From: Spirosoma linguale DSM 74
GTDB lineage: Bacteria; Bacteroidota; Bacteroidia; Cytophagales; Spirosomataceae
Direction of reading: 5' to 3'
Assembly (NCBI GenBank): GCA_000024525.1
Contig: CP001769.1
Coordinates: 1,178,001 to 1,242,000 of the forward strand
DNA length: 64,000 nucleotides
Shown here: positions 10,479 through 59,900 of the stretch, in pieces
Layout of the letters: every line of letters starts with the position of its first letter
Position numbering within the stretch: the stretch's first letter is position 1
The notes under the pieces: generated by a model
Seen by the model: the letters and a program-made list of their open reading frames with translations, nothing else
Told to the model about the DNA's origin: nothing
The model's database searches: none
Made by a program: the position numbers and the translations under genes

Positions 10479-10554
10479 AGTAGTTAGGAGTGAGGAGCGA
10501 GGAGTGAGAATAGCGTTTTGCCTTCTCACTCCTCGCTCCTCACTCCTAACTACT
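10479..10554. repeat. 32-bp perfect inverted repeat (TTAGGAGTGAGGAG family)
   Basis: Left arm 10479-10510 and right arm 10523-10554 are exact complements, separated by a 12-base loop. The arms are built of TAGGAG/GAGGAG words shared with the element inserted in miaB (27227-27330). The right arm abuts the transketolase stop codon (10555-10557), and the left arm ends ten bases before the sigma-factor start. In RNA it would form a strong hairpin, but no T-run follows on either side. Confidence 0.9.
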
Positions 10555-26438: not shown

Positions 26439-26529
26439 TAATGAATAATGGACAATGAGTGATGGGTAATGGATAGTAAAAAACTAGCTTGACAGCGTTA
26501 TTCATTACCCATTCTTCATTATGCATTAA
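26439..26529. repeat. palindromic repeat at the miaB 3' end
   Basis: Left arm 26439-26478 (AATGAATAATGGACAATG, GGGTAATGGATA) pairs imperfectly with right arm 26499-26529 (TTATTCATTACCCATTCTTC...). The right arm contains the miaB stop codon and the codons for its last residues. The left arm is ten bases from the start of the sigma-54 regulator. Confidence 0.75.
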
Positions 26530-28060
26530 CTACCTCGCCCCGTAGCGTTGCTGACGTACACTCAGTTACTAATACGTTGACATACTGCCCTTTCTGGTGG
26601 TCCCCTTTGGGAAATACGACCATCTTGTTCTGGTCATTCCGGCCACAAAGGAAGTCGTCGGATCGTTTGGACGGCCCTTCGATCAGGACGCGCTGCACCT
26701 GGCCGATATGTCGTTGATTACGTTCGGCCGAGTGGGCCAGTTGTCGGGCAATGATCTCGTTCAGGCGACGCTTCTTGACATCTTCCGGAATATCATCGGC
26801 ATATTTTTTTGCTGCCAGCGTCCCCGGGCGTTCCGAGTAGGCGAACATGTAGGCGTAGTCGTAATGCACATAGTCCATGAGCGACAACGAATCCTGGTGT
26901 TCTTCTTCGGTTTCGGTGCAGAATCCCGAAATCATATCGGTCGAGATGCCGCAGTCTTCTCCCAGAATTTCCCGGATGCGGTCAATTTTGCCAATGTACC
27001 AGGGACGGTCGTAGGTTCGGTTCATCAGTTTCAACACCCGGCTGTTTCCGCTTTGCGCGGGCAAATGGATGTAGTTGCAGATGTTGTCGTACCGGGCCAT
27101 GGTATGCAGTACATCGTCCGTAATATCTTTTGGGTGCGAGGTCGAAAAACGCACCCGAAGATCAGGATGGATTTGAGCCACCATTTCGAGCAGGTGCGCG
27201 AATGTTGTAGTTGTATTAGTATTAGTAGTTAGGAGCGAGGAGTTAGGAGTTGCTGACGCATCCATATTTGCTGACGCTGGTCTGCCGGTGCGGTCAGCAA
27301 CTCCTAACTCCTCGCTCCTAACTCCTAACTCCCATTTATAACTATCCACATTCTGCCCAAGCAGAGTAACTTCGCGGTAGCCCTGGTCAAAGAGGTCCTG
27401 TGCTTCACGAACAATGCTAAAGGGGTCACGGCTGCGTTCGCGGCCACGTGTAAACGGCACCACGCAGAAGCTGCACATGTTGTCGCAGCCGCGCATGATG
27501 GATACAAAAGCGGTTACGCCGTTCGAGTTCAGACGTATCGGTGAAATGTCGGCGTAAGTTTCTTCGCGGGACAGAAACACATTTACCGCCTTCTGGCCCG
27601 ATTCAGCTTCTTCAACCAGCTTCGGAATGTCGCGGTAGGCATCAGGCCCCGCTACAATGTCGACCACTTTTTCTTCTTCAAGCAGTTTGGTCTTCAGCCG
27701 TTCGGCCATGCATCCGAGCATCCCGACCAGAAGTTCCGGTTTCTGGCGTTTCAGACCGGTAAGGTGCTTGAGCCGGTGTCGGACTTTCTGTTCGGCATTG
27801 TCGCGGATGGCGCAGGTATTCAGGAAAATCACGTCAGCTTCGTCGGCCGATGAGGTAGTGGCATAACCGGCATTCCGCATCACGGCTGCGACGATCTCGC
27901 TGTCGGCAAAGTTCATCTGGCAACCGTAGCTTTCGATGTACAGTCGTTTTTTACCAACCGATAGCTCATCTTCCAATGTACGGGGTAAGTCGATGTGCTC
28001 TTTATCGTCAGGTTGTAGTATGGTTAGTTCGGGTATGAGCGTCATAAATAGAGAGTCCAT
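26519..28060 (-). CDS. miaB: tRNA-2-methylthio-N6-dimethylallyladenosine synthase MiaB
   Basis: The 513-residue protein has all three MiaB domains: an N-terminal UPF0004 domain with Cys 47 ([10 protein letters not shown]) and further Cys in [10 protein letters not shown] and MLGCMAER; the radical SAM domain with [10 protein letters not shown]; and a C-terminal TRAM domain. It methylthiolates A37 of tRNAs. ATG 28045 is an alternative start. Residues 244 to about 285 are an extra segment encoded by a palindromic repeat, inserted after [11 protein letters not shown] and before [10 protein letters not shown]. No frame or stop defect results, so the enzyme may still work. Confidence 0.95.
27227..27330. 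repeat. palindromic repeat inserted in frame within miaB (31-bp perfect arms)
   Basis: Left arm 27227-27257 and right arm 27293-27323 are exact complements of 31 bases with a 35-base loop; a partial second TAGGAGTT unit extends the right side to about 27330. The TTAGGAG/GAGGAG words match the repeat at 10479-10554. Read in the miaB frame it encodes [11 protein letters not shown], a linker, then PNSSLLTT, without stops. Confidence 0.95.
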
Positions 28061-44722: not shown

Positions 44723-45424
44723 ATGCAGGGTAAAAATATTCTAATCATTGGAGCGAGTTCGGGTATAGGGCATGCGTTAGCGCTACAACTACAGGGTCAG
44801 GGAGCTACGCTTTTTACCGCCGGTCGAACCCAGCCCGAAGGTATTCAGTCTACGCATATGGTATGGGATATTACCAAAATCCCCGCTGTCGATGCACTGA
44901 CTCAACTTCCCGACACGCTCCATGGTCTGGTATATTGCCCCGGCTCCATTAATCTAAAACCGTTCCAACGGCTTACCCTTGACGATTATCGTCGTGATTT
45001 CGAACTGAACGTGCTCGGCGCGGTGAGTGCTATTCACGCGAGCTATGCCGTTATCAAAAAATCAAAATCAGCCAGTATTATTCTTTTCAGTACAGTTGCG
45101 GCCAAACTGGGAATGGGTATGCATTCGTCCGTATCGGTGGCTAAATCGGCCGTTGAAGGACTAGGCAAATCGCTGGCGGCTGAGTTGGCACCGTTCAACG
45201 TCCGGGTAAACGTGCTGGCACCTTCCCTGACCGATACGCCTTTAGCGGGTTTCCTGCTGGGGGATGAAACCAAACGGGAGGCTGCCAACAAACGGCATCC
45301 GCTCAATCGGTACGGTACGCCCGAAGACATTGCAGGCATGGCCGCTTACCTGCTCACCGATCAGGCAAGCTGGATAACTGGCCAGGTTATCGGCATTGAT
45401 GGCGGCATGGGGAGTTTGAAGTAA
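44723..45424 (+). CDS. short-chain dehydrogenase/reductase (SDR) lacking the catalytic Tyr
   Basis: Starting at ATG 44723 the protein is 233 residues with a Rossmann cofactor motif (IGASSGIGHAL), an NxxG-like FELNVLGAVS, and the Ser region (ILFSTVAAKLG). The YxxxK signature is replaced by VSVAK, with Val at 137 where Tyr is expected and Lys 141 kept. The C-terminus (GQVIGIDGGMGSLK) is typical. Placement after folE suggests a pterin-related reductase or an unrelated function. The missing Tyr means activity cannot be assumed. I infer the start because the tandem repeat array precedes it. Confidence 0.88.
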   Translation: MQGKNILIIGASSGIGHALALQLQGQGATLFTAGRTQPEGIQSTHMVWDITKIPAVDALTQLPDTLHGLVYCPGSINLKPFQRLTLDDYRRDFELNVLGAVSAIHASYAVIKKSKSASIILFSTVAAKLGMGMHSSVSVAKSAVEGLGKSLAAELAPFNVRVNVLAPSLTDTPLAGFLLGDETKREAANKRHPLNRYGTPEDIAGMAAYLLTDQASWITGQVIGIDGGMGSLK

Positions 45425-45495
45425 TCAGTAATCAAAAAAAAAGGGGTGACACGGTTTTGAACCGTGTCACCCCTTTTTTTTTGATTACTGATTAC
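45421..45495. terminator. perfect 36-bp inverted-repeat bidirectional terminator
   Basis: Arms 45421-45456 and 45460-45495 are exact complements with a three-base loop, including a GGGGTGACACGGTT core and nine-base A and T tracts. The stops of the SDR gene (45422-45424) and of the aldehyde dehydrogenase (45492-45494) lie inside opposite arms. Confidence 0.95.
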
Positions 45496-47102
45496 TTGGA
45501 GATCTTTCCATCTACATTACGCCAGATATTGAGCGGGTTATCGTTTTGTAAAGCGGGTGGTAACAACTCATCCGGGAAGCTCTGATACGTGACAGGCCGC
45601 ACGAACCGTAGTATAGCCGCTGTTCCTACCGACGTCGACCGGCTATCGCTGGTGGCTGGGAAAGGACCGCCGTGGGTCATCGCTTCCGAAACTTCAACAC
45701 CCGTTGGGTAGCCGCCAAACAAGACCCGTCCAGCTTTCGCCTGAAGTAAAGAAACCCAATCGACAGACGAGAATGTCAGCTCGGCCGGTGTAGCGTAAAT
45801 GGTTGCCGTAAGTTGACCTTCCAAAGTGGTTAGGCATTCTTCCAGCTCGGCTTCGGTCTCACACACAACAACCAATGATGTTGGTCCGAAAACCTCTTCG
45901 CCCAGCGCCGGGCTGCTCAGGAAAATAGGGGCTGTGGTACTCAGTATCGTTGGTCGTCCCTGTGTCTGGCTGCTTTCAGCGTCCGTGTCGGCTTCGGCCA
46001 GCACATGAACGCCGGGAATAATCCGGTTCTGCTGAACGCCCTTTTGATACGCCTGACAGATGCCTGCGTTCAACATCGTTGCCGGTGCCGACGCCCGAAT
46101 TTTCTCGGCTACTGTTTCCAGAAATACCTGTGTTTTGGGGGAGTCGAGTAAGAATACTAAGCCTGGATTGGTGCAGAACTGGCCTACGCCCAGGGTGATC
46201 GAACCCGCCAGCCCGGCGGCAACCGTAGTGGCAGAATTAGGTCCTGTCTCCTGACTGATGGCACCCGGTAACACAACAAAGGGATTCACGGCGCTCATTT
46301 CAGCATAGACCGGAATCGGCTCTGGGCGACTCTGGGCTACGCGCAACAGCGCCAGGCCACCGGCTCGCGATCCGGTAAAGCCAACTGCTTTCACAGCCGG
46401 ATGGGCGACGAGTTGTTGAGCAACCTCAATATCGGCATGTAAGAGCGAAAAAACGCCATCGGGCATACCGGTTTTCTGAGCAGCCGATACAATCGCCTGA
46501 CCCACCAGCGACGAGGTACCCGGATGCGAGGGATGCGCTTTCACAACAACCGGGCAACCAGCAGCCAGTGCCGACGCCGTGTCGCCACCGGCTACCGAGA
46601 AGGCAAGCGGGAAATTGCTGGCTCCAAAAACGACAACCGGTCCCAGGGGCACCAGCATACGGCGCAAGTCGGGGCGGGGTAGGGGTTGGCGGTCAGGCAT
46701 AGCCGGATTGATGCGGGCATCCACCCATGAACCTTCACGAAGGACATTCGCGAACATCCGTAACTGACCCGTGGTACGGCCCCGCTCACCCGAAATACGA
46801 CCGGTCGGCAGTCCGCTTTCCAGCACAGCCCGTTCAATGAGTTCGTCGCCAATGGCTTCTATTTCGGCGGCAATGGCGTCGAGGAAGTCGGCCCGTTGTG
46901 CCCCACTGAGTTTGGCATATACCGGAAAGGCTTCGGCAGCTTTTTCGATGGCCTGATTGGCCTGCTCTTGAGATACGTTTGCAAAGTCATCGGCAAGATT
47001 CTCGCTAAGGGAAGGCGCGAAGGCTTTGAAAAAAATGCCGTCGCCGGTTACCGGCTCATTGCCAATAAAGCTGAGGGTGACAGATTGTTGCGTGGTTGAC
47101 AT
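45492..47102 (-). CDS. aldehyde dehydrogenase, 2-oxoglutarate-semialdehyde (KGSADH) type
   Basis: The 536-residue protein matches the NADP-type aldehyde dehydrogenases that act on alpha-ketoglutaric semialdehyde: VFGASNFPLAFSVAGGDT, VVVKAHPSHPGTS, the NAD-binding VGFTGSRAGG and catalytic Cys 310 in GVGQFCTNPGL. It oxidises the last intermediate of oxidative pentose or uronate routes to 2-oxoglutarate. This fits the sugar-acid theme of the window. The preceding steps are not present nearby. Confidence 0.9.
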   Translation of the reverse strand: MSTTQQSVTLSFIGNEPVTGDGIFFKAFAPSLSENLADDFANVSQEQANQAIEKAAEAFPVYAKLSGAQRADFLDAIAAEIEAIGDELIERAVLESGLPTGRISGERGRTTGQLRMFANVLREGSWVDARINPAMPDRQPLPRPDLRRMLVPLGPVVVFGASNFPLAFSVAGGDTASALAAGCPVVVKAHPSHPGTSSLVGQAIVSAAQKTGMPDGVFSLLHADIEVAQQLVAHPAVKAVGFTGSRAGGLALLRVAQSRPEPIPVYAEMSAVNPFVVLPGAISQETGPNSATTVAAGLAGSITLGVGQFCTNPGLVFLLDSPKTQVFLETVAEKIRASAPATMLNAGICQAYQKGVQQNRIIPGVHVLAEADTDAESSQTQGRPTILSTTAPIFLSSPALGEEVFGPTSLVVVCETEAELEECLTTLEGQLTATIYATPAELTFSSVDWVSLLQAKAGRVLFGGYPTGVEVSEAMTHGGPFPATSDSRSTSVGTAAILRFVRPVTYQSFPDELLPPALQNDNPLNIWRNVDGKISK

Positions 47103-52302: not shown

Positions 52303-52358
52303 GAGTTATCAACAGAAAAGGGCAGATTCATGAATCTGCCCTTTTCTGTTGATAACTC
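52303..52358. terminator. perfect 56-bp palindrome, bidirectional terminator
   Basis: GAGTTATCAACAGAAAAGGG and the rest of the left half (52303-52330) pair exactly with the right half (52331-52358) with no mismatch and no spacer. It lies seven bases after the sugar dehydrogenase stop and seven bases before the end of the convergent membrane protein gene. Confidence 0.95.
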
Positions 52359-55517: not shown

Positions 55518-55571
55518 AGTTGCTAAAAAAGAAAGGCTGATCGCACGATCAGCCTTTCTTTTTTAGCAACT
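55518..55571. terminator. perfect 26-bp hairpin terminator
   Basis: Arms 55518-55543 and 55546-55571 are exact complements (core GAAAGGCTGATCG) with a two-base loop and six-base A/T tracts inside the stem. It lies between the convergent SGNH-like and GH88 genes. Confidence 0.93.
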
Positions 55572-56757: not shown

Positions 56758-56895
56758 GTGTGCTTGTTATCGTGCAATGAGCCGAGTTTATGAATGGCTC
56801 AACTAGTAAGTAAGCAAAAAAACGGGTCTTTTCAACCGAGCAGTGTATGTTTTTTCGAATCCTACCTGATGAAAATAATGAATGCTAAGGTTCTT

Positions 56896-56956
56896 AACAA
56901 TGTAAAACAGAAATGGGTATCTGGTGACCAGATACCCATTTCTGTTTTACATTGTT
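56896..56956. terminator. perfect 30-bp inverted repeat downstream of the RND operon
   Basis: Arms 56896-56925 and 56927-56956 are exact complements (core AAATGGGTATCTGGT) with a one-base loop. It lies six bases from the RND permease stop codon, so it can end transcription of that operon. There is no long T-run. Confidence 0.92.
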
Positions 56957-56962
56957 GAAAGT

Positions 56963-59900
56963 TTAAGCATGTACTTCCAGCTTTGTTGGTTTTTCCTTGT
57001 CTTCCGATTTTGAATCAACTTCAGGCTGGACATCTTTCCGTCGGGACATGTACGTGTAAATGACCGGAACGACGTACAGGGTTAGAATGAGCGAGAACAT
57101 CAGTCCTCCCACGATAACGATACCCAGCGGTACCCGGCTCTTTGAAGCCGAACCCAGGGCAAGGGCCAGTGGCAAAGCACCAAAGGCCGCTACAAGCGTG
57201 GTCATTAGAATAGGACGAAGCCGCAACGCAGCCGATTCTGCTGCTGCTTCGAACTTGTTCTTACCCGTCAGTCGCTGTTCATTGGCGAATTCAACAATCA
57301 GGATTCCGTTTTTCGTAACCAGACCAACCAGCATAATAATCCCGATCTGGCTGAAGATATTCAGCGTTTGGTTAAACATCCAGAGTGAGAATACGGCACC
57401 CGCGAGCGCCAGAGGCACGGTGATCATGATAATGAGCGGATCGATAAACGAATCGAACTGGGCCGCCAGAACTAAATAAACCAGAATTAACGCCAGACCA
57501 AAGGCAAATAAGGTGTTGGACGAACTCTCGGCATAGTCGCGGGAAGGACCTGAAAGGGCCGTCTGGAAACTTTCGTCGAGGGTACGAGCCGCAATAGCGC
57601 GCATGGCCTCTACACCGTCGCCCACCGTTTTGCCGGGTGCCAGACCCGCCGATACCGTCGCCGATTTAAAGCGGTTGTAGTGGTATACCTGGGGCGGGCT
57701 ACTCACTTCCTGAAATTTCACCAGGTTGTCTAACTGAATAAGTTGCCCCTGGTTGGAACGTACATAGAAAGAGGCCAGATCGACGGGGGCATCACGGTCG
57801 GCGCGGTCTACCTGCCCAATTACCTGATACTGCTTTCCGTTCATCAGGAAGTAAGCCAGACGCCGGTTACTAAGCGCAAGCTGGAGCGTTTGGGCAACAT
57901 CCTGCACCGAAATACCCAGGTTCGTCGCTTTCTCGCGGTCGATGCTAATGTTCAGCTCCGGTTTGTTAAACTTCAGGTCTACGTCGGAGTTCTGGAACGT
58001 TGGGTCTTTGGCTACTTCGTCCAGAAACGTTGGCAGTTTCTCGCGGAGTTTTTCGAAGTTCAGGTTCTGGATAACAAACTGCACCGGCAATCCACCGCCC
58101 CGGCCAACCTGAATGGTCTGGTCCTGCGTAGCGAACATGCGGGCTTCGTTGAACTTCTTGAGATTTTTATTAATATAATCGACAATATCCTGCTGCGACC
58201 GATTGCGGTTGCTGGGGTCTACCAGGTTCTCCATCACGAAGGAGGAGTTAACCGCGCCTGCCCCCGAAAAACCGGGTGCTACTACGCTAAAGGCTAATTT
58301 GGTTTCGGGGATAGAGTCGAGTACAAACTGCATGACCCTGTCCGTTAGAGATGCCTGAGCCTCATAGCTTGTTCCTTCAGGCGAAGTAATCACCAGGCGG
58401 GTCCGACTACGATCTTCGAGCGGGGCCAGTTCCGATTTGAGCATAGAGCCAAGTCCGAAGATAAACAGCAGACAGGCACCAATCATAACAAACGCCCAGC
58501 CCCGTTTTTTCATGAAGCTGTTCAATGACGACCGGTAAGAATTATCCAGCCATTCGAAAAAGGGCTCTGTTTTTCGGTAAAACCAGGACCGACCGTGGTT
58601 CTTACTGGTGAGCTTTACACTAAGCACCGGGGTCAGGGTTAGCGAAACGAAGGCCGAGATTAATACGGCACCAGCGACAACGATACCAAATTCGCGGAAC
58701 AGACGACCCACAAAACCCTCCAGGAATATAATGGGCAGGAACACGATAGCCAGTGTAACACTGGTTGCAATAACGGCAAAGAAAATCTCATTAGAACCTT
58801 CGCGGGCAGCTTCCTTGGTGTCCATGCCCTGCTCAATCTTCTTGAAGATATTCTCCGTTACGACAATACCATCATCTACTACAAGGCCGGTTGCCAGAAC
58901 GATACCGAGCAGGGTCAGCACGTTAATACTGAAATCGGCCACATACATGATGAAGAAGGCCCCGATAAGCGATACCGGAATGTCGATCAGCGGTCGGAAA
59001 GCAATGAGCCAGTCGCGGAAGAAGAAATAGATAACCAGTACGACCAGTACAAACGAAATAAGCAGTGTTTCGCCTACTTCTTCAATGGCGCGTCGGATAA
59101 ATGTACTCCGGTCAACGCCGATACTTACGATAATATCCTCGGGCAGGTCTTTTTTGAGTTGGTCGAAGCGCTTATAAAACTCATCGGCAATGCTCACATA
59201 GTTGGCACCTGGCTGAGGAATAAGCGCCAGAATAACCCCTACTGCCCCATTCTGTTTAGAGATAGTTTCTTCGTTCTCCGCACCGATGGTTGCATACCCG
59301 ACATCTTTGAAACGAACAATTTGATTGCTCGTCTGGCGAAGGATGAGGTTATTGAAATCATCTTCGGTTGTCAGACGACCAACCGCCTTCACCGTCAGCT
59401 CGGTTGTATTACCATACACTTTACCGCTGGGTAACTCAACGTTCTGGGCATTCAGTGCGGTCTGAATATCCTGTGAGGTGAGCCGATAGGCCGATAGTTT
59501 GATGGGGTCAATCCAAAGGCGCATAGCCTGACGCTTCAAGCCATAGATGTTGGCCTGACTAACGCCCGGAATCGTTTGCAGACGTTCCTGAAGCACGTTT
59601 TCGGCGTAATCCGACAACTGGGTTGGATTGCGGGTCGTACTCTGAACCGTCATGAAAATAATAGGATCAGAGTTGGCATCGGCTTTTGTTACCACAGGTG
59701 GGGCGTCGATATCCTGCGGCAGTTGCCGTTGGGCCTGGGCTACCTTATCGCGTACATCGTTGGCGGCCTGTTCCAAATCGGCATCGAGGTTGAACTCGAC
59801 TGTAATGGTACTGGCACCGAGCGCGCTGTTCGACGAGATTGTACGAATCCCTTCGATACTGTTCAACGATTTCTCGATGGGTTCCGTAATCTGCGATTCA

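Follow-up and report, generated by a model that had tools for sequence, protein, structure and literature searches.

How does a long and almost perfect palindrome come to lie within the reading frame of a conserved enzyme gene, and by what means could it persist there? The question is raised by miaB of Spirosoma linguale DSM 74 (CP001769.1, genome of 8.49 Mb, G000 in our comparisons), which lies in a 64,000-nt stretch of DNA, hereafter the window, whose coordinates are used throughout. The gene and the parts of its palindrome are as follows.

26519..28060, minus strand: miaB, ORF of 513 aa, 430.8 bits with TIGR01574 against a cut-off of 355.3
27203..27334, minus strand: variable in-frame slot of miaB, residues 243-286; the flanks are conserved, the filler differs among congeners
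27222..27257, plus strand: arm 1 of the palindrome, heptamers of the GTTAGGA/GCGAGGA kind, then GTTGCTGAC
27258..27292, no strand assigned: loop of the palindrome, 35 nt, containing GCTGACGC, a word found again in other copies
27293..27328, plus strand: arm 2 of the palindrome, pairing with arm 1

The product passes the equivalog cut-off of TIGR01574 (MiaB, tRNA methylthiotransferase), and its model match is broken by the insert into 40-242 (TIGR01574) and 285-512 (a related model). It is the single MiaB-grade protein found in G000; a second, intact MiaB was looked for in this genome and discarded, the other matches being merely 28-33% identical. The perfect inverted repeat of 31 bp with a 35-base loop, on which the preliminary description was built, was verified (arms 27227-27257 and 27293-27323) and is the longest perfect run within extended arms (27222-27257 and 27293-27328) that pair at 35 of 36 positions. 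The slot comprises 44 codons free of stops, and its inverted-repeat score corresponds to p = 0.005 with 200 shuffles and 0.003 with 300, the lowest values possible with these numbers of shuffles. In the structure 7mjv, which we take to be that of MiaB from Bacteroides uniformis, both matching segments are 4 residues apart, between residues 223 and 228, so the insert sits between two conserved parts of the enzyme; it is probably a surface loop, and the palindrome is presumably translated as a flexible linker in this tolerant place. A known RNA family was also considered and rejected, as the Rfam search of the window gave no match at gathering scores.

Comparison with the MiaB of relatives showed that the palindromic repeat is confined, in the set read, to Spirosoma. 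Among the named genomes scanned, 79 of 80 MiaB loci were read, and two of them (L231 and L232) belong to Spirosoma, leaving 77; in these the loops span 7-43 residues (the measure adds one residue compared with the one applied to the genus slots), inverted-repeat scores do not exceed 7, and the sole locus scoring 7 gave p 0.12 on shuffling. The loops of Larkinella, Arcicella, Pseudarcicella and Telluribacter are 12 residues long. Fibrella aquatilis, the first non-Spirosoma locus listed, has a loop of 33 residues with no significant palindrome, hence long loops as such are not limited to Spirosoma. One of the 77 loci (L270) comes from a metagenome-assembled genome labelled Spirosoma fluviale, the MiaB of which shares just 65% identity with the MiaB encoded in the window; the label is apparently wrong.

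Within the genus, the element turned out to be, not a lone insertion in miaB, but one filler of a slot present throughout Spirosoma, in which the kind of repeat varies by species. Matches to miaB were found in 36 of 36 genomes, and 35 genes were readable at the slot (the match in G028, a fragment, was left out). All 35 are open throughout, with at least 238 residues before the slot and at least 225 after it, and the slot itself measures 10 to 57 residues, the near-empty states being those of 10, 11, 14 and 17 residues. Relative to these near-empty congeners (10-17 residues) the net gain in G000 is 27-34 residues, which is slightly below the addition of about 40 proposed earlier, while the in-frame and stop-free character of the insert stood. 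Palindromes significant at p <= 0.01 occur in 14 of the 35 miaB fillers (10 of 35 under stricter scoring) versus 1 of 210 control windows from the rest of the gene, the other 21 fillers having no significant palindrome at this threshold. At p <= 0.01 inverted repeats were likewise found in 7 of 30 uvrA fillers and in 14 of 30 fillers of a hydrolase gene (both loci taken from 30 of the 36 genomes each), and in 5 of the 21 oxidase fillers read (30 loci, 9 of them unread by motif). The miaB loop is a genus-wide slot, and the uvrA and hydrolase slots are alike. The palindromic fillers of miaB are of several unrelated kinds, namely heptamers of the AGGAG kind and AATGATGA-like, GGGCAGAGGG-like, CCCCTCCC-like and GGGAGGAAAG-like words. 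Fitch counts of changes in repeat kind amounted to 14, 11 and 8 and are rough, because hand-made word patterns served as family labels and several tree nodes have support of 13-52. Matches to the AGGAG family were obtained in 19 of 36 genomes, among them all six genomes labelled AGGAG at miaB, the slot itself possibly being among these matches. Such figures count matches on either strand, from no more than 24 scored candidates in each genome, and should not be taken as copy numbers.

The search of G000 for further copies of the miaB element revealed related DNA in coding as well as intergenic sites: 93 matches, merged within 300 bp, fall at no fewer than 40 distinct places, a lower bound because 40 of the 76 candidates were scored. 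Among 21 distinct places read, five lie inside a spanning ORF (miaB, a hydrolase that we take to be YheT-like, an FAD-linked oxidase, UvrA and L026), and four of these are conserved proteins; L026 is, by our reading, a mere read-through ahead of a start codon. The UvrA ORF carrying the palindrome scores over its model cut-off, and the model match of the hydrolase ORF is below its own. A second paralog of the FAD-linked oxidase carries in frame a palindrome with perfect arms of 54 nt, so that the in-frame cases number five (miaB, uvrA, the YheT-like hydrolase and two oxidase paralogs). The oxidase paralogs L316 and L006 of G000 bear different palindromes in apparently the same loop. In G007 (Spirosoma fluviale) an ORF with a DUF4011 domain (L318) also carries an in-frame palindrome, with 57-nt arms of which 56 positions are paired; the ORF shows a weak, below-cut-off likeness to anti-phage proteins. 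For measurements of frames and arm identity, 3 of the 21 places were left out as weak. All six frames are closed in 8 of 14 intergenic copies, and 2-3 frames are open in each of the four in-frame copies measured; the closed frames of intergenic copies fit a filter on insertions in genes. The identity of the arms within a copy exceeds their identity with every other copy in just 6 of 18 cases, a partly informative figure.

The intergenic palindrome which had been said to share the heptamer words of miaB is real, and a repeat of another heptamer family lies beside miaB itself.

10479..10554, no strand assigned: intergenic palindrome of the same heptamer family as the miaB element, 32-nt perfect arms and a 12-nt loop
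26446..26528, no strand assigned: ATAATGG-like heptamers, a different family, forming an inverted repeat with 80% complementary arms in the miaB 3' spacer

An ORF call spans 10479-10554, but the homologs in G027 and G007 begin later, and the palindrome is therefore read as intergenic. At the orthologous site the same palindrome stands in G027, an unrelated one in G007. The latter is of the GTAGAGACGCAATACC type, and similar words occur in cyanobacteria. In 19 of 35 genomes an inverted repeat within the 120 nt located 3' of miaB is significant, the kinds differing by eye, and this spacer has, also by eye, one heptamer more in G027 than in G000. A count of inverted repeats reaching the chosen quality in the 464 kb that surround the window gave 65, versus none in one copy shuffled in 50-nt blocks. 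Simple ORF calling placed 4 of the 65 inside a called ORF; two of the four precede the start used by homologs, and the remaining two are those of miaB and the YheT-like hydrolase. When all palindrome arms of at least 16 nt are pooled, a common seven-base periodicity is weak (0.336 versus 0.22-0.32 for the other lags from 3 to 11), and many intergenic palindromes are non-heptameric. Further long, near-perfect intergenic palindromes were noted at 45419-45497, 52303-52358, 55518-55571 and 56882-56970; in G027 the arms of the first and third are altered in a mirrored way, and different sequence stands in place of the second and fourth.

The content of the slots follows the genome in which they reside. 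Words of seven letters common to the fillers of different slots are 2-4 times more frequent within a genome than between genomes (permutation p 0.0036, 0.0002 and 0.0006). Words of the slots were also shared with the surroundings of miaB more in the own genome than in other genomes for the hydrolase (p 0.002), uvrA (0.013) and miaB (0.049), this slot-to-flank test being weak in the case of miaB. As to the heptamer class at orthologous sites, 19 directed comparisons yielded the same palindrome in 7, a different one in 7 and none in 5. We infer that a slot may be overwritten by another dispersed palindrome, perhaps primed via short shared arms.

A feature missed by the preliminary description is that the two arms often change together. 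Orthologous palindromes of G000, G027 and G007 were aligned over about 400 kb, with pairing defined in one species only for the counts of mirrored changes, and hairpins with less than 70% of pairs aligned or less than 70% identity were dropped. Mirrored double changes numbered 19-31 across the six directed comparisons, whereas independence of the arms predicts 4.8-10.9 double changes of any kind. From G000 to G027 there were 27 mirrored changes versus 7.4 on average in the permutations (maximum 16 of 2000), and from G007 to G027 there were 31 versus 8.1 (maximum 16 of 2000); in all four directed comparisons tested the mirrored changes exceeded every one of 2000 within-hairpin permutations, which ignore the shared ancestry of the three species, and did so with terminator-like hairpins excluded too. 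One-sided changes (28-53) outnumber mirrored ones in all six comparisons, for example 53 to 27 from G000 to G027, so that the copying of arms is at best incomplete and the arms decay as well. The mirrored changes are mostly single bases, runs of two or more appearing in 0-2 hairpins per comparison. The loop is replaced by its exact reverse complement in 4 of the 19 comparable loops from G000 to G027, the closest pair among the three species (one of the four is merely 4 nt long), and in 2 of 19 in the reverse direction; none was found in the four comparisons with G007. A 21-mer with 10 occurrences at 6 loci of the 36 genomes occupies both arms at four of these loci, one being miaB of G027; it is present in one arm in miaB of G022 and in neither arm in miaB of G000, and its reversed control pattern was not found. 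An intergenic composite almost identical to the G027 miaB element exists in G007 (L311), and the mirrored block in miaB of G027 may thus stem from a composite of this sort that took the place of the entire element. Homogenised arms and inverted spacers, both found in the orthologous hairpin set, are together reported as a footprint of template switching, coding DNA included (PMC8604942), which is also described as creating and maintaining RNA hairpin stems (PMC8794818), as far as the accessible portions of these papers go.

Neither outcome named in the preliminary description as a refutation, a segment conserved in the MiaB of distant relatives or an arm lacking further genomic copies, was encountered. 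The suggestion of a mobile repeat that survives in coding DNA was borne out as regards the other coding and intergenic copies; active mobility was not, no transposase being linked to the family and no consistent target-site duplication being found. G000 encodes seven Y1_Tnp proteins, and an inverted repeat is present at six of the seven loci, with the same palindrome on both sides in two. A word search for two adjoining heptamers, covering about 1.5 kb on each side, found the heptamer family at none of the seven, and mobilisation of this family by a RAYT was rejected on these grounds. Three of the loci (L228, L229 and L230) have GC-rich palindromes, identical on both sides in L229 and L230, and words from them such as CCGACCGTCCCGGTCGG are found again in intergenic palindromes near the window; they are likely to be true REP/RAYT families. 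Around the heptamer palindromes, GTAG stands at the edge in 5 of 18 copies and CGTC in none, so that the set as a whole does not consistently bear the stem-edge tag (GTAG or CGTC) of REP sequences. One copy of the 18 is flanked by direct repeats of at least 4 nt, heptamer runs having edges that are hard to place, and the target-site duplication expected of MITEs is likewise no consistent feature of the set. Loss of the hairpin nuclease SbcCD was considered as a cause of the abundance of palindromes and set aside: SbcD scores over its cut-off and adjoins an SbcC-like ORF that is below the SbcC cut-off, so that the loss of SbcCD offers no simple reason for so many palindromes.

Taking these data together, we consider it rather probable that dispersed palindromes with no known transposase persist in tolerant protein loops and are partly kept perfect through copying between their arms. 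The miaB element would then be one copy of a dispersed Spirosoma palindromic repeat whose arms are runs of degenerate heptamers, and a small number of flexible loops in conserved proteins appear to be rewritten again and again by short repeats. The course of events could be as follows. Related copies are dispersed, most of those read lying outside conserved ORFs and few in frame in conserved proteins; to judge from the open frames, the survivors within genes would be copies of translatable length and frame in loops unimportant for folding. In the orthologous set the arms evolve non-independently, with changes in one arm recurring in the other beyond chance, and some loops flip; the same may be supposed for the miaB copy. 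Template switching during replication within the hairpin (quasipalindrome correction) would tend to restore the arms; it accounts for both arm copying and loop inversion, and would not require the hairpin to be under selection. Over longer times the filler would be overwritten by a palindrome family abundant in the given genome, and the same slot would in this way hold different families in different species. Dispersal needs a separate explanation, and a transposase acting in trans is possible. A stronger version, which we put forward tentatively and expect may well fail, is that MiaB, UvrA, the YheT-like hydrolase and the FAD-linked oxidases of Spirosoma contain sockets refilled in frame by the abundant palindrome family through hairpin template switching between dispersed copies, with no transposase involved.

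Other explanations fit parts of the same evidence. The palindromes could be non-autonomous transposons of the REPIN, MITE or RPE type, served by a transposase in trans, with miaB, uvrA and the other genes as chance targets where copies survive in loops; the dispersed families, the genome-specific supply and the Y1_Tnp loci with their inverted repeats speak for this, and the heptamer family's absence from the vicinity of all seven Y1_Tnp genes, together with the scarcity of tags and direct repeats at its edges, speaks against it, as do the mirrored changes and inverted loops, which it leaves unexplained. We find it rather unlikely. It is improbable that the hairpin of the slot is under selection as an mRNA structure (for pausing or stability) or for a useful peptide, the palindrome being kept though its sequence changes. 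In many species a palindrome is indeed found again at this site, and mirrored changes, mostly of single bases, also fit compensatory selection; however, no significant palindrome (p <= 0.01) is present in 21 of 35 miaB, 23 of 30 uvrA and 16 of 30 hydrolase fillers, some slots are near-empty, and loop inversion would be unexpected.

The structure of the arms as heptamer runs and the heptamer gained or lost (by eye) between G000 and G027 in the spacer 3' of miaB invite the thought that the filler grew in place, by heptamer slippage and local inverted duplication, taking nothing from copies elsewhere. However, unrelated loci have in common with it the loop word GCTGACGC and long composite blocks, and words are shared by fillers of unrelated genes within a genome, which makes such an origin very improbable. 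An artefact, be it a misassembly, a pseudogene or a segment skipped in translation, would be the simplest dismissal, as assemblies can be misled by palindromes and untranslated palindromes are known in yeast mitochondria, according to the available part of PMC6649704; we give it hardly any credence, as the frame is open in 35 of 35 genomes, the gene is the sole MiaB-grade copy in G000 and several genes display the same pattern.

Whichever course the fillers took, the genus Spirosoma as a whole provides a natural series of fillers that occupy the same codons in frame, are palindromic in many cases and exist in near-empty as well as filled states. The series makes testable the persistence and spread of short palindromes with no transposase, through copying between hairpin arms, and also the role of repeats as suppliers of raw sequence to protein loops. 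If the socket reading is true, intergenic DNA and protein loops undergo concerted evolution. A warning follows as well: base changes mirrored between the two sides of a stem may arise without any selection on RNA structure.

Among known systems, the seven-base units resemble the heptameric and small dispersed repeats of cyanobacteria, a likeness of description only; the small dispersed repeats of these organisms are nested, and in-frame use is not known to be among their features. Heptameric repeats are reported to be over-represented in bacteria, according to the part of PMC4692102 at hand. The Rickettsia palindromic elements are palindromic repeats of about 150 bp that have inserted both in frame within unrelated genes and in extragenic DNA (PMC10969869, in the text available). 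The parallel with them drawn in the preliminary description is a fair one for the way of life, since the Spirosoma palindromes too lie in frame within unrelated protein genes and have extragenic copies, and in this respect the Rickettsia elements may be regarded as their nearest counterparts. Their arms are reported, in the accessible part of PMC6649704, to lose identity with time, whereas the Spirosoma arms both decay and change together. A switch of palindrome family at one slot is not described for the Rickettsia elements in the available text of PMC10969869 and PMC6649704, nor are in-frame slots switching family between species described in that of PMC3733652, and a search of the open-access literature, with most subscription journals outside its scope, returned no paper on the Spirosoma repeats.

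In bacteria at large, the nearest counterpart may be the intragenic REP repeats of the GTAG and CGTC families, palindromes inside ORFs with uvrA and uvrB among their hosts (PMC3733652, as far as its available text goes). They share with the Spirosoma elements the position within ORFs and uvrA as a target; in contrast to them, the heptamer family is neither tagged consistently with GTAG or CGTC nor accompanied by a neighbouring RAYT, other palindromes flanking the Y1_Tnp genes of G000. In perfection of arms the closest match may be sought in nematomorph mitochondria, where long perfect palindromes in protein genes are gained and lost between species and a conversion mechanism has been suggested (PMC6649704, in its accessible part); their arms encode conserved protein regions, whereas those of Spirosoma are part of dispersed repeats and occupy a loop that varies. 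Finally, template-switch footprints in yeast genes and RNA hairpins are alike in arm homogenisation and spacer inversion, as the available portions of PMC8604942 and PMC8794818 describe them; in Spirosoma, unlike there, the process would act on dispersed families of long-armed repeats throughout a bacterial genus.
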